A stretch of DNA of 64,000 nucleotides from an uncultured Erysipelotrichaceae bacterium (GTDB taxonomy: Bacteria > Bacillota_I > Bacilli_A > RF39 > UBA660): the NCBI GenBank assembly GCA_902789225.1, contig CADANC010000006.1, positions 1-64,000 of the forward strand, in the 5' to 3' direction. The position numbers and the translations under genes were made by a program. Each line of letters starts with the position of its first letter. Position 1 is the first letter of the stretch. Below the pieces are notes generated by a model, which was not told the DNA's origin, did no database searches, and saw only the letters and a program-made list of their open reading frames with translations. Shown one piece after another: positions 57,182 through 61,386 of the stretch.

Positions 57182-57556
57182 TTATTTATAATTTACACCT
57201 ATTTTTATTAGTTTTCTTTCTCTTTTTTTGTTTCTTTTAATATTATCATCGAGATTAATTAATAATTCATCTAAAAATGGATTTCTTTCTTCATATTCAG
57301 ATTTAAGTATTTGTGTTTCACAATATGGTCCTTCTGTTTCTTCTACACCTACGTAGGCACAATCAAAATCTATATATAATGTTTTTCCATTAATAAGTTG
57401 GGTTGCGATATTTGGATGTAAACTTATAAAGTCAGGACTTTCATATGTATATGGAATAACTCCTTTCTTTGTTTCTAAAAAAGCAGTTATTTGAATAGTT
57501 GAATTATTCCTATTATAATTTGCAAATATAGTTTTTGGTAAATTAGTAGTACTCAT
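57182..57556 (-). CDS. Unknown protein of about 124 residues
   Basis: The start is the ATG at 57554-57556 behind GAGGTG. The sequence is beta-rich in its first half (TIFANYNRNNSTIQITAFLETKKG) and contains LYIDFDCAYVGVEETEGPYC in the middle. The C-terminal 40 residues are helical and end very basic (NIKRNKKRERKLIKIG). It precedes the PP-loop gene by 18 bases. I recognise no family. Confidence 0.55.
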   Translation of the reverse strand: MSTTNLPKTIFANYNRNNSTIQITAFLETKKGVIPYTYESPDFISLHPNIATQLINGKTLYIDFDCAYVGVEETEGPYCETQILKSEYEERNPFLDELLINLDDNIKRNKKRERKLIKIGVNYK

Positions 57557-57586
57557 TTTATACACCTCATTGGTATTGTATCAAAA

Positions 57587-57608
57587 AAGACTAGTCCTCA
57601 CTAGTCTT
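57587..57608 (-). terminator. Terminator of thrS
   Basis: AAGACTAG-loop-CTAGTCTT followed by T6 on the minus strand, 31 bases past the thrS stop; thrS is therefore monocistronic. Confidence 0.85.
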
Positions 57609-57639
57609 AATTTGTTTTACTTGAATTCTTGTTAGTATT

Positions 57640-59175
57640 TTATCTTTTTTTGATTTCTTCTTTAATATATTTTATAAATTTATCAATTGGCATTGAAACA
57701 GTTTCTTCACTACCGTATTTTCTATAACTTACTAAATTATTATCTCTTTCATTATCTCCAATTATTAATGTATATGGATTCTTCATAATATTACTATTCA
57801 TAATTTTTTTGTTAAATCTATCTTCTGAATCATCATAACTTGCTCTAATATCCTCATCAATTAATAATTGTTTTAACTTTTCACAATACTCACCTTGATA
57901 TTTAGCACTTATTGGAACAATGTTTACTTGAACCGGAGATAACCATATAGGTAATACTCCTTTAGATTGTTCTAATAATAATACTAAAAATCTTTCATAT
58001 GATCCTAGAACAGCTCTATGTACCATTACTGGAGATTGTTTTTCTCCATTTTCATCAATATATGATAATCCAAATCTTTTTGGAGTTGCAAAATCTAATT
58101 GAACAGTTGGTATTTGAATTTCTCTATCTAGAGCATCCTTAAACATGAAATCTAATTTAGGTCCATATAGTGCTGCTTCACCTTCACATCTTTTAGCATC
58201 TAAACCTAATTCATTAGATATTTCTTGAAGTAAGTTTTCACATAAATCCCAGTCTGATTTTTCTCCAATATACTTTTCTGGATGATCATAATCTCTTACT
58301 GATAATGATACCCAATGATTATCCCATAATCCCATTCTAGAATAAAAGTCTTTAATTAAATTACATATATTTATTATTTCTTGTTTAACCTGGTCTCTAG
58401 TACAAAACACATGACCATCTTCTACAGTTATAGCATATACTCTTGATAAACTATTTCCTACTGCTCCTTGAAGTTCTGCTCTATATTGTTTATCTGATTC
58501 CATATATCTAATTGGTAGATCCTTATAACTTCTTAATTTAGATGCAAATATTTGAGTATGATGAGGACATTGAACTGGTTTTAATACAAATTTATGACCT
58601 TTTGGAGATTCAACTCTAAATAATTCATCATTAAACTTAGAAGCATGTCCTGAAGTTTCAAATAAAGATATATCAGCAAGTGATGGGCAACTTACTTTTT
58701 CAAATCCATATTTTCTACAAACTCTTTCCATTTCTCTTTTTAATTCATCAATTATAATAGTACCTCTTGGAGTAAACAATGGAAGGCCTGCTCCTACATA
58801 ATCAGAAAAACAGAATAAATCTAAATCCTGACCTATTTTTCTATGATCTCTTTCTTTAGCTTCTTCTATAAACTGATTATATTTATTTAATTCTTCTTTG
58901 TTTGCAAATGCTTTACCTACAATTCTAGTAATCATCTCATTATTAGCATTTCCTTCATAGTATACTCCACTTATTCTTAATAGTTTTATGTATACACTAT
59001 TATCTATTTTTTTTATTTCATTTTCTAATTTTTCAAAATCATTTTCACTAACTTGTTCATCTGATTTAAATTCATAATAAAATTCATTGTCATCATAGGA
59101 CATATTATCTAATCTTACATTATGATAATTATTATTAATTACATCTTTAAGTAATTCTACACCTTTATTATTCAT
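57640..59175 (-). CDS. thrS: Threonyl-tRNA synthetase lacking the TGS and editing domains
   Basis: The 511-residue class II synthetase charges tRNA-Thr. The catalytic core keeps zinc/active-site residues in KPVQCPHHTQIF (Cys 203), QYRAELQG (motif 2), VEDGHVFCT (His 255) and HRAVLGSYERF (motif 3), and the anticodon-binding domain follows from about residue 400. Bacterial ThrRS is usually about 640 residues. Here the TGS domain is absent. The N2 region shrinks to ENDFEKLENEIKKI joined to the KLLRISGVYYEGNANNEMITRI linker, so the His-x3-His and Cys-x3-His editing residues are gone. Mischarged Ser-tRNA-Thr could not be cleared in cis. It is preceded by a threonine attenuator. Confidence 0.95.
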   Translation of the reverse strand: MNNKGVELLKDVINNNYHNVRLDNMSYDDNEFYYEFKSDEQVSENDFEKLENEIKKIDNSVYIKLLRISGVYYEGNANNEMITRIVGKAFANKEELNKYNQFIEEAKERDHRKIGQDLDLFCFSDYVGAGLPLFTPRGTIIIDELKREMERVCRKYGFEKVSCPSLADISLFETSGHASKFNDELFRVESPKGHKFVLKPVQCPHHTQIFASKLRSYKDLPIRYMESDKQYRAELQGAVGNSLSRVYAITVEDGHVFCTRDQVKQEIINICNLIKDFYSRMGLWDNHWVSLSVRDYDHPEKYIGEKSDWDLCENLLQEISNELGLDAKRCEGEAALYGPKLDFMFKDALDREIQIPTVQLDFATPKRFGLSYIDENGEKQSPVMVHRAVLGSYERFLVLLLEQSKGVLPIWLSPVQVNIVPISAKYQGEYCEKLKQLLIDEDIRASYDDSEDRFNKKIMNSNIMKNPYTLIIGDNERDNNLVSYRKYGSEETVSMPIDKFIKYIKEEIKKR

Positions 59176-59179
59176 ATTT

Positions 59180-59242
59180 TTACCTTCTTTCTTGTTTTAC
59201 TTTTGACAGGGAGATAATCGTACCATTAATCGTTTCCGTCAT
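59180..59242 (-). CDS. 20-codon upstream open frame between the attenuator and thrS
   Basis: This frame, MTETINGTIISLSKVKQERR, starts behind AGGAGATG (8-base spacing) and stops four bases before the thrS ATG; the thrS ribosome binding site lies inside it. Three Thr fall in the first eight codons. The AGGAG can pair with ATCTCC inside the frame. Its position favours translational coupling to thrS, or a second threonine-sensing step. It could also be chance. Confidence 0.4.
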   Translation of the reverse strand: MTETINGTIISLSKVKQERR

Positions 59243-59297
59243 ATTATCATCTCCTATTTTTATATCTATATCTATTATACTATTTATTTAAAATAAA

Positions 59298-59326
59298 AAG
59301 TCCATTACATTAATTGTAATAGACTT
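59298..59326 (-). terminator. Attenuator terminator of the thrS leader
   Basis: On the minus strand AAGTCTATTACA and TGTAATGGACTT form a 12-base-pair stem (one T-G pair) followed by TTTTTATTTT. It lies between the Thr-rich leader frame and thrS, so thrS mRNA requires readthrough. Confidence 0.8.
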
Positions 59327-59359
59327 TAAAAATACTATATTTACTTATAATTTATATTT

Positions 59360-59443
59360 TTAAACAATGCTAAAACAACCAATGTAACTAATTGATTTTA
59401 ATGTTGTTGTTTTAGTTGTTGTAGTTAATTGATTATTTAACAT
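59360..59443 (-). CDS. Threonine-rich leader peptide of thrS (27 residues)
   Basis: The leader starts at the ATG at 59441-59443 behind AAAGGGAG. It begins MLNNQLTTTTKTTTLKS, with seven Thr in residues 7-14, and ends at a TAA at 59360-59362. The Thr-codon run (plus-strand 59406-59415) is complementary over 10 bases to plus-strand 59370-59379 later in the leader. The end of the frame, TTTAAAAATA, is complementary to TATTTTTAAA just before the terminator. This is the layout of a classical ribosome-mediated attenuator: stalling at Thr codons frees the later segments to pair, and finishing the peptide lets the terminator form. The regulatory role is inferred from layout. Confidence 0.8.
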   Translation of the reverse strand: MLNNQLTTTTKTTTLKSISYIGCFSIV

Positions 59444-59470
59444 ATTATTCTCCCTTTCAAAAGTAATATT

Positions 59471-59499
59471 AATATAGCATATTCTCTTTGTAATGTCAA
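59471..59499 (-). promoter_or_regulatory. Promoter of the thrS leader transcript
   Basis: TTGACA and TATATT are separated by 17 bases on the minus strand. The predicted transcript would start about 20 bases before the leader ATG. Confidence 0.8.
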
Positions 59500-59526
59500 A
59501 AAGCTATAGAAATGTATTTATATTAA

Positions 59527-61386
59527 TTATTTATATGAATTTCTATATTTCTTAATAATATAAATAGCTAATATAAATAGTATTGATGAAATTATATAAG
59601 AAATCATATTAGCTTTTTTATAAGTATTTGGAACGTCTACTACTGTAACTTCAGTTGAAGGTTCTGTTGTTGTATTATTACTATTATCTGTATTTTCTAT
59701 AGTTGTAGGAGTCTCATATTCTTTAGGTGTTGTTGATATAGTTGATGTAGATATATCATTTGTTGTATCAGTAGTCTCAGATGAAATTCTTGAACTAGAA
59801 TCATCATTACTATTTGTATATTCTCTTGGTGTTGTTGTTTCTTCTGATGTAGATATATCATTTGTTGTATCGATATTCTCAGATGAAACATTTGTATTTT
59901 CAGATACATTATCTTCTTTTTCAATAGTAATAGTATAACTTGATACCTTGGTATTATCTTTATATATATTTATATAAATAATACTTCCATTTTTTAAATT
60001 TTTATTTCCAACAATTTTATAATTATAGTTATTAGCTAGATCACAAGTTATATTTAATTCTTTTTCTTCTTTTATTTTTAATTTATAACTATGTTTATTT
60101 TCATTAAATCCTAATTTATAACCTGCTACACTAATATTTTTAACAATAGTTGTATCAACACGTTCACTTTGTTTATTAATTTTAATAGTAATCTTATTAT
60201 CATTAGTTGCACTATAAGCAATTCCTTGTGTAGCATATACATTTAAATCTACATTACTAGTATTATCATTTTTTACATTTACTATTATTTTTTTATTACT
60301 ACTATCTACTTTACAAGTAGCTAATTTAGTATTACTACTTATACATTTAACAGTACCATCACCATTATAATTATATGTTATATTTTTTGTTTCATTAGCA
60401 TTTGCATTAATAGAATTAGTATTAAGATTAATTTTTGCTTGAGGAATAGTCTTCAATTTGTTTTTAGCTATTTCTTGATCTACTTTAGTCTTTTCAATTG
60501 GCATATTTTTACCAAATGAAGTTCCTGGTAAATTATATTTTCCTGTATAACTACTAAACCAGACCATATTATTATTTGTTTTTAATCTTTTATAGATACT
60601 ATCTGCTTTAGTTGTACTATCTCCAGTACAATATCTATTATTATCACCATCACATTTTCCAGCAGTATTAACTAATACGCCTAATTTTTCATCACTATCA
60701 GTATTTTTAACATATTCAAGTAATTGAACATTAAAACTAATCCATCTAACGTAATTATTCATATCTTTTTGTTCAGCCATTTTAACTATAGATCTGATTT
60801 GTTCTTGAGTTCCTTCTTTTAATTCAATACTTACTTGCATATTATTAGTTTTTACATAGTCAAGCATCTCTTCAAAAGTAGTTATCCTATTATTATTATA
60901 GTTAGATAATTTCTTATCAGGTTCTTCATTCAATCTTTGAATATTAAATATATAATTATTCTTTAATTGACTATAAGTTAAATTCTTAACATATACTTTA
61001 TCGCCTGTAATTGGTTTTAAATCTTTAGTTAGTGCAAGATTATTAATATATGTATCATGACATAATACTGCAACATTATCTTTTGTAAATCTAACATCTG
61101 TCTCAAAGCCATAATAACCATGTTTTTTTACACTTTTAAATGAAGCTAGGGAGTTTTCTGGAGCATCTCCATATCCTCTATGTACACCATAAAATACATT
61201 ATATCTTTTGGTTTCTACTCCATTAACATATAATGCCCAAACTTTCTTTTGATTGTTCCAAGAGTCACTACTTTTAGCATCACTTGCTGGAATAATATGC
61301 CATCCATCACTAAGCATTTCATGCGCATATACATTAGGCATTATAAAGCAACATAATGCTACAAGAATAATAAATATTTTTTTCAT
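59527..61386 (-). CDS. Secreted, wall-associated glycerophosphodiester phosphodiesterase
   Basis: The 619-residue protein has a signal peptide (IFIILVALCCFIMPNVYA, cleavage near 21). A GDPD domain at about 60-300 follows: YGVHRGYGDAPENSLASF, YGFETDVRFTKDNVAVLCHD (catalytic His, Glu, Asp, His), VSIELKEGTQEQ. Two beta domains (about 310-490) come next, then a Ser/Thr/Asn-rich stalk with an imperfect internal repeat (TTNDISTSEETTTPREY and TTNDISTSTISTTPKEY). The C-terminus has VDVPNTYKK, a membrane helix and KKYRNSYK, resembling a sortase sorting signal. GDPD enzymes release glycerol phosphate from teichoic-acid or phospholipid head groups. Confidence 0.88.
   Translation of the reverse strand: MKKIFIILVALCCFIMPNVYAHEMLSDGWHIIPASDAKSSDSWNNQKKVWALYVNGVETKRYNVFYGVHRGYGDAPENSLASFKSVKKHGYYGFETDVRFTKDNVAVLCHDTYINNLALTKDLKPITGDKVYVKNLTYSQLKNNYIFNIQRLNEEPDKKLSNYNNNRITTFEEMLDYVKTNNMQVSIELKEGTQEQIRSIVKMAEQKDMNNYVRWISFNVQLLEYVKNTDSDEKLGVLVNTAGKCDGDNNRYCTGDSTTKADSIYKRLKTNNNMVWFSSYTGKYNLPGTSFGKNMPIEKTKVDQEIAKNKLKTIPQAKINLNTNSINANANETKNITYNYNGDGTVKCISSNTKLATCKVDSSNKKIIVNVKNDNTSNVDLNVYATQGIAYSATNDNKITIKINKQSERVDTTIVKNISVAGYKLGFNENKHSYKLKIKEEKELNITCDLANNYNYKIVGNKNLKNGSIIYINIYKDNTKVSSYTITIEKEDNVSENTNVSSENIDTTNDISTSEETTTPREYTNSNDDSSSRISSETTDTTNDISTSTISTTPKEYETPTTIENTDNSNNTTTEPSTEVTVVDVPNTYKKANMISYIISSILFILAIYIIKKYRNSYK

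Follow-up and report, generated by a model that had tools for sequence, protein, structure and literature searches.

Background

Control of aminoacyl-tRNA synthetase genes in Firmicutes is usually ascribed to T-boxes. Such an element was reported for the class I lysK gene of B. cereus (PMC2916919). Leader-peptide attenuation in this phylum was described for histidine, where leader peptides precede his operons as well as hisS/hisZ paralogues (PMC2965389, PMC9413887), and for the S. aureus ilv genes, which carry a leucine attenuator peptide (PMC5794164). According to a 2005 survey of Actinobacteria, no Firmicutes synthetase gene was then known to be under classical attenuation (PMC1262725). Searches of the open-access literature found no case in which a leader-peptide attenuator and a T-box stand in series, and no Thr or Lys leader peptides before Firmicutes synthetase genes.

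Here we describe a threonine-codon leader upstream of a second threonyl-tRNA synthetase gene, thrS2, which, judged from sequence comparison, is very probably a ribosome-mediated transcription attenuator that induces an editing-less ThrRS when charged tRNA-Thr is scarce.

Methods

The window is the whole stretch of 64,000 nucleotides that was analysed (contig CADANC010000006.1, positions 1 to 64,000). Public genomes supplied 80 loci, and upstream regions were compared across 45 distinct regions of orthologous thrS2 genes. The set of Rfam families searched comprised 4227 models. A covariance model of the leader (R1) was run on 386 genomes of the family and matched in 24 of them; searching with an exact pattern of the attenuator proved too strict, with hits in 2/386 genomes, and a looser leader pattern gave matches outside the known sites that were mostly due to chance. 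As a chance control for the Thr run, 20 Markov windows were generated.

Results

Two thrS genes are present in the genome, and ThrS2 is 42% identical to ThrS1. Residues 7-60 of ThrS2 align with residues 79-132 of S. aureus ThrRS and residues 62-509 with 194-640, so that ThrS2 has no counterpart of the N-terminal domain or of residues 133-193. Into this missing stretch falls what we take to be the ThrRS editing site (two His in HxxxH plus a Cys/His pair); by alignment, the editing site of ThrS2 is gone. Pfam identified only catalytic and anticodon-binding domains in ThrS2. Upstream of thrS1, the housekeeping gene, lies a T-box (68.5 bits, E=7e-15; locus L002, 640-1110) that falls below Rfam's cut-off; between it and thrS1 is a further small ORF. 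In the partial tRNA-Thr set of the genome, tRNA-Thr(CGT) was the only one seen.

The features of the locus are collected in Table 1. The earlier note had read this region as a promoter, a 27-codon leader with seven Thr, and a terminator with a T run, followed by thrS, and all of these are present in the sequence. The promoter lies on the minus strand and additionally has a TG extension; TTGACA-like and TGn-TATAAT-like boxes recur at the same distance from the leader start in 38/40 relatives. ORF1, the predicted leader peptide, is preceded by an SD-like sequence and carries its seven Thr at residues 7-14 (codons at 59425-59402). Among the 1815 small ORFs of the window it is the sole one with at least five Thr per eight residues, and the Markov windows contained two ORFs at exactly five and none at six or seven; a chance origin of the Thr run was thereby ruled out. 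As expected of an attenuator, an intrinsic terminator (59327-59295) lies between leader and gene, and an equivalent hairpin with T run is present in the relatives that keep the leader element. No T-box, threonine operon leader or other relevant family was matched in 57500-60000 by Rfam up to E=10, in agreement with the earlier note, which had seen no T-box here. Just upstream (59527-61386), the window encodes a protein resembling glycerophosphodiester phosphodiesterase, its C-terminal stretch rich in Ser and Thr.

Table 1. Features of the thrS2 locus in the window
Feature	Position	Strand	Description	Basis
Promoter P1	59471..59499	-	TTGACA (59499-59494), 17-nt spacer, TGC-TATATT (59476-59471)	sequence and relatives
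ORF1	59360..59443	-	putative Thr leader peptide MLNNQLTTTTKTTTLKSISYIGCFSIV and stop, 27 codons	sequence; Thr-rich counterpart in relatives
r1	59423..59443	-	first seven codons of ORF1 including AUG; partner of r3	paired cells and swap test
r3	59367..59385	-	ACAUUGGUUGUUUUAGCAU, near the leader's end; core UUGAUUGUUUUAG almost invariant in relatives	alignments
r4	59309..59322	-	CUAUUACAAUUAAU, terminator 5' arm and loop; predicted antiterminator partner of r3	swap test and Lys-type leaders
Terminator 1	59295..59327 (hairpin 59327-59297)	-	intrinsic; AAAGUCUAUUACA-AUUAA-UGUAAUGGACUUU, then T run	sequence and relatives
Candidate P2	59274..59279	-	TATAAT, without TG extension or good -35	by eye in window; relatives
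SD2 hairpin	59210..59254	-	GGAGAUGAU (59254-59246, ORF2 Shine-Dalgarno) with AUUAUCUCC (59218-59210, inside ORF2)	folding, window and relatives
ORF2	59180..59242	-	mini-ORF MTETINGTIISLSKVKQERR and stop; three Thr codons, all ACG	present in 44/45 loci
thrS2	57640..59175	-	second threonyl-tRNA synthetase, editing site missing by alignment; 511 aa, ATG at 59175	sequence comparison

ThrS2 is held by a minority of the family: 26/386 genomes gave a match at E<=1e-130, and among these, 16 genomes besides that of the window encode a protein 69-82% identical to ThrS2 across practically its whole length. In one genome (G415) there are two thrS2 genes, and the second is preceded by a leader of its own; viral contigs yielded no ThrS2 relative. 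At G028:C20:16143-16316 lies a 58-residue piece with a stop that shares 78% identity with the C-terminus of ThrS2, perhaps what is left of a lost copy. About 42 of the 45 loci have an intact leader, r3 and terminator, and the promoter recurs too. Leader, r3 and terminator are all absent from L081, and in L085 the leader start codon and the terminator are both gone while a T-box is kept; contig ends truncate the upstream regions of L077 and L106.

Two alternative pairings are predicted in this leader, r1:r3 and r3:r4. They share r3 and are thus mutually exclusive, and they overlap ORF1, as is characteristic of an attenuator. When each arm was tested against the arms of other loci, r3:r4 duplexes had a mean energy of -11.8 with their own partner and -10.9 with swapped ones (0/1000 swaps as good), and r1:r3 duplexes -11.9 and -11.3 (1/1000), in a test that leaves shared ancestry in place. 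The r1:r3 cells are 89.7% paired compared with 31-49% when slid, the changes being mostly G-U wobbles. In L079 and L097 one A-U pair of r3:r4 has become G-C, and L096 has an altered r4 with complementarity to r3 kept. A local r2:r3 hairpin was also considered as protector and was rejected for want of co-variation (825/1000 swaps as good).

The earlier note had placed the switch in two other pairings. The 10-base complement to the Thr run (59379-59370) is exact in the window (-11.9 kcal/mol), but it does not carry over to the relatives, where 154/1000 swaps were as good; aligning the relatives, as the earlier note had proposed, bore out the conserved Thr codons and not this pairing. The second pair, TTTAAAAATA with TATTTTTAAA, joining the stop-codon region to the terminator base, is present and its own partners beat the swaps (0/1000), but with a mean of -3.2 kcal/mol it amounts to a weak spacer hairpin, absent in L090. 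The conserved switch is instead predicted to be r1:r3 versus r3:r4.

In folds with a masked ribosome, likewise proposed earlier, a ribosome placed on the stop codon covered r3 and the terminator formed in the window; for the last Thr codon the outcome was mixed. At equilibrium, r1:r3 re-forms behind a ribosome at that codon, so that the switch would require early stalling, a steric block or co-transcriptional order. Because equilibrium folding gave these mixed results, folding of the nascent RNA was adopted. With r1 covered and only the 5' arm of the terminator made, r3:r4 was favoured over r2:r3 in 37/41 loci, the exceptions being L079, L099, L104 and L107; a ribosome placed on the last Thr codon raised this to 41/41.

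Behind the attenuator, between terminator 1 and ORF2, a T-box with the core GGATGGTACCGT was recognised by motif and layout in 31/45 loci, with ACU as specifier in most. In the three loci that were scored with the full-length Rfam model (RF00230), L066, L067 and L071, it reached 54.4, 58.3 and 63.0 bits, below the gathering score of 93. The T-box is missing in 14/45 loci including the window, and the attenuator is kept in 14/14; no fully readable locus has lost both. The nearest ThrS2 relatives of the window, L066 and L067 (93% identity), carry the T-box, and the ThrS2 tree nests the window among T-box-bearing lineages, so loss of the T-box in the lineage of the window is the most likely reading of the tree. 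The draft genome consists of 43 contigs and an assembly error may lie behind the missing T-box, but the shorter layout without it recurs in other lineages, which bears against such an error. At L098 the T-box has AAT in place of ACT as its specifier, and the reading frame of ThrS2 breaks off at 53 aa; the copy may be decaying, or the assembly may be wrong. The description 'attenuator, not T-box' in the earlier note thus holds locally and fails for most relatives; since 31/45 loci including the two nearest relatives carry the T-box, 'attenuator plus T-box, T-box lost here' is the better wording. The note had also passed over ORF2, the Lys-codon form of the scaffold described below, and the fact that this thrS is a second copy lacking the editing site.

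The same scaffold occurs with Lys codons. A leader reading MLNNQIKKSIKKNKKSI..IGCFSISSK, or a close variant, stands directly before class I lysS in G183, G346, G108, G304 and G367 (Lys-type loci L189, L191, L192, L193 and L194), so ORF1 counterparts are Thr-rich before thrS2 and Lys-rich before lysS. The terminators of the Lys type differ in sequence yet keep ACAATCAA, and complementarity of r3 and r4 is kept as an uninterrupted pairing of 12-14 bp; neither ORF2 nor a T-box accompanies these leaders. Within the family, class I lysS is uncommon (7/358); the five closest all have the leader, and no leader was found at the two more distant genes (57-58% identity). Class II lysS was also found above its cut-off in three of four class I lysS genomes checked, so that class I lysS looks like a spare synthetase. 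An Asn/Lys/Ile-rich version of the leader was seen before a DUF7674 protein in G284 (L195, 1500-2182).

Discussion

Comparison of the loci establishes the conserved parts of the element, its alternative pairings as predicted from sequence, and the use of a Lys-codon form of the scaffold before lysS. That relatives keep the promoter, the Thr codons and the terminator supports the earlier proposal that ribosome stalling at Thr codons is the sensor; stalling itself, the order and timing of folding, and induction are what we infer from it. Without a ribosome, r1:r3 would pair, leaving r4 free, and the terminator would form and stop transcription. With ample Thr-tRNA, the ribosome would reach the stop codon and cover r3, and the terminator would again form. 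When Thr-tRNA is scarce, the ribosome is expected to stall on the Thr codons, covering r1, and r2 as well if it stalls late. With r1 covered, r3 would capture r4 once this is transcribed, block the terminator and let thrS2 be transcribed. In most relatives the T-box follows the attenuator, and read-through from P1 there would need two agreeing Thr signals.

Control of thrS2 in the window by a T-box too divergent for Rfam, with an incidental leader ORF, would fit with T-boxes at thrS1 here and at thrS2 in most relatives, whose T-boxes do fall below the gathering cut-off. The same tool, however, scores those at 54-63 bits and gives no T-box match in the window up to E=10, and only about 50 nt separate terminator 1 from the start of ORF2, where the relatives' T-boxes of about 186 nt cannot fit. 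Gap length rules out a hidden T-box in the window, and in relatives the T-box is an addition to the attenuator, not an alternative to it; we regard this explanation as almost certainly wrong. A start of transcription at P2, downstream of the terminator, would leave the leader with little to regulate. An extended -10 (TGnTATAAT) does stand at a fixed distance before the T-box, after terminator 1, in 16/31 T-box-bearing relatives, where P2 is possibly a second promoter that bypasses the leader attenuator, and the window keeps TATAAT. Yet the window's copy has neither TG extension nor -35 box, several relatives are without P2, and P1, conserved as described above, is by far the better match to consensus, which makes a dominant P2 here very improbable.

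ORF2, placed between the terminator (or T-box) and thrS2 and consensus-like MTETxxDTIxS, is the third candidate for control, at the level of translation or mRNA stability: slow passage of ribosomes over rare Thr codons would melt the SD2 hairpin or protect the mRNA, with ORF1 in a minor part. It is nearly universal among the loci, and its Thr codons are ACG in 72/99 cases in the main clade and ACC in 32/44 in the Clostridia-labelled clade, far above the 2.8% ACG and 4.7% ACC of the window's genes; its Shine-Dalgarno sequence sits in a hairpin, of 9 bp in the window. A role of ORF2 in Thr sensing is likely. As the principal control it is improbable, if somewhat less so than a dominant P2, for ORF1 and the terminator are also kept, in every locus without a T-box, the Lys-type leaders do without ORF2, and nothing that sequesters the SD of thrS2 itself was seen in folding. 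The attenuator formed by ORF1, r1, r3, r4 and terminator 1 remains the preferred explanation of the locus.

A broader reading would treat the element as a reprogrammable cassette, MLNNQ-(codon run)-KSI..I(D/G)CFSI with r1, r3 and r4, in which the codon run alone sets specificity and which serves spare Thr and Lys synthetases. In the Thr case it would be combined with a T-box and with ORF2, the latter serving as a third sensor of Thr codons at the level of translation or mRNA stability. Taken whole, we hold this reading only tentatively and would not put it at even chances. A second enzyme that lacks editing and has a sensor to itself, next to an editing-type ThrRS controlled by a T-box, suggests a role in starvation or in bypassing an inhibitor.

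An attenuator and a T-box in series before one gene would make Thr sensing by uncharged tRNA and by ribosome progress comparable on one transcript. The separate losses, of the T-box in the window and of the attenuator in L081 and L085, would serve as natural experiments, and the Lys version indicates that the attenuator can change specificity through its codon run, as the T-box does through its specifier.

The element shares with the classical attenuators (thr, his and trp operons; E. coli pheM-pheST) an ORF with cognate codons, exclusive pairings and an intrinsic terminator, and with pheST and the candidate trpS and leuS attenuators of Streptomyces (PMC1262725) a synthetase gene as target. 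It differs from the classical attenuators in the sequence and layout of the leader, in that the predicted protector is the leader's own start region, and in its occurrence in Bacillota. The his and ilv leaders share leader-peptide attenuation in Firmicutes, once before extra hisS copies, but they were described as replacing T-boxes or where T-boxes are missing, whereas most relatives have the thrS2 attenuator in front of a T-box; Thr and Lys are the amino acids here. With the T-box (RF00230), finally, the element has in common the kinds of genes (thrS and spare lysS) and the stimulus, uncharged tRNA; the T-box senses the tRNA directly, whereas the attenuator would sense the progress of the ribosome.
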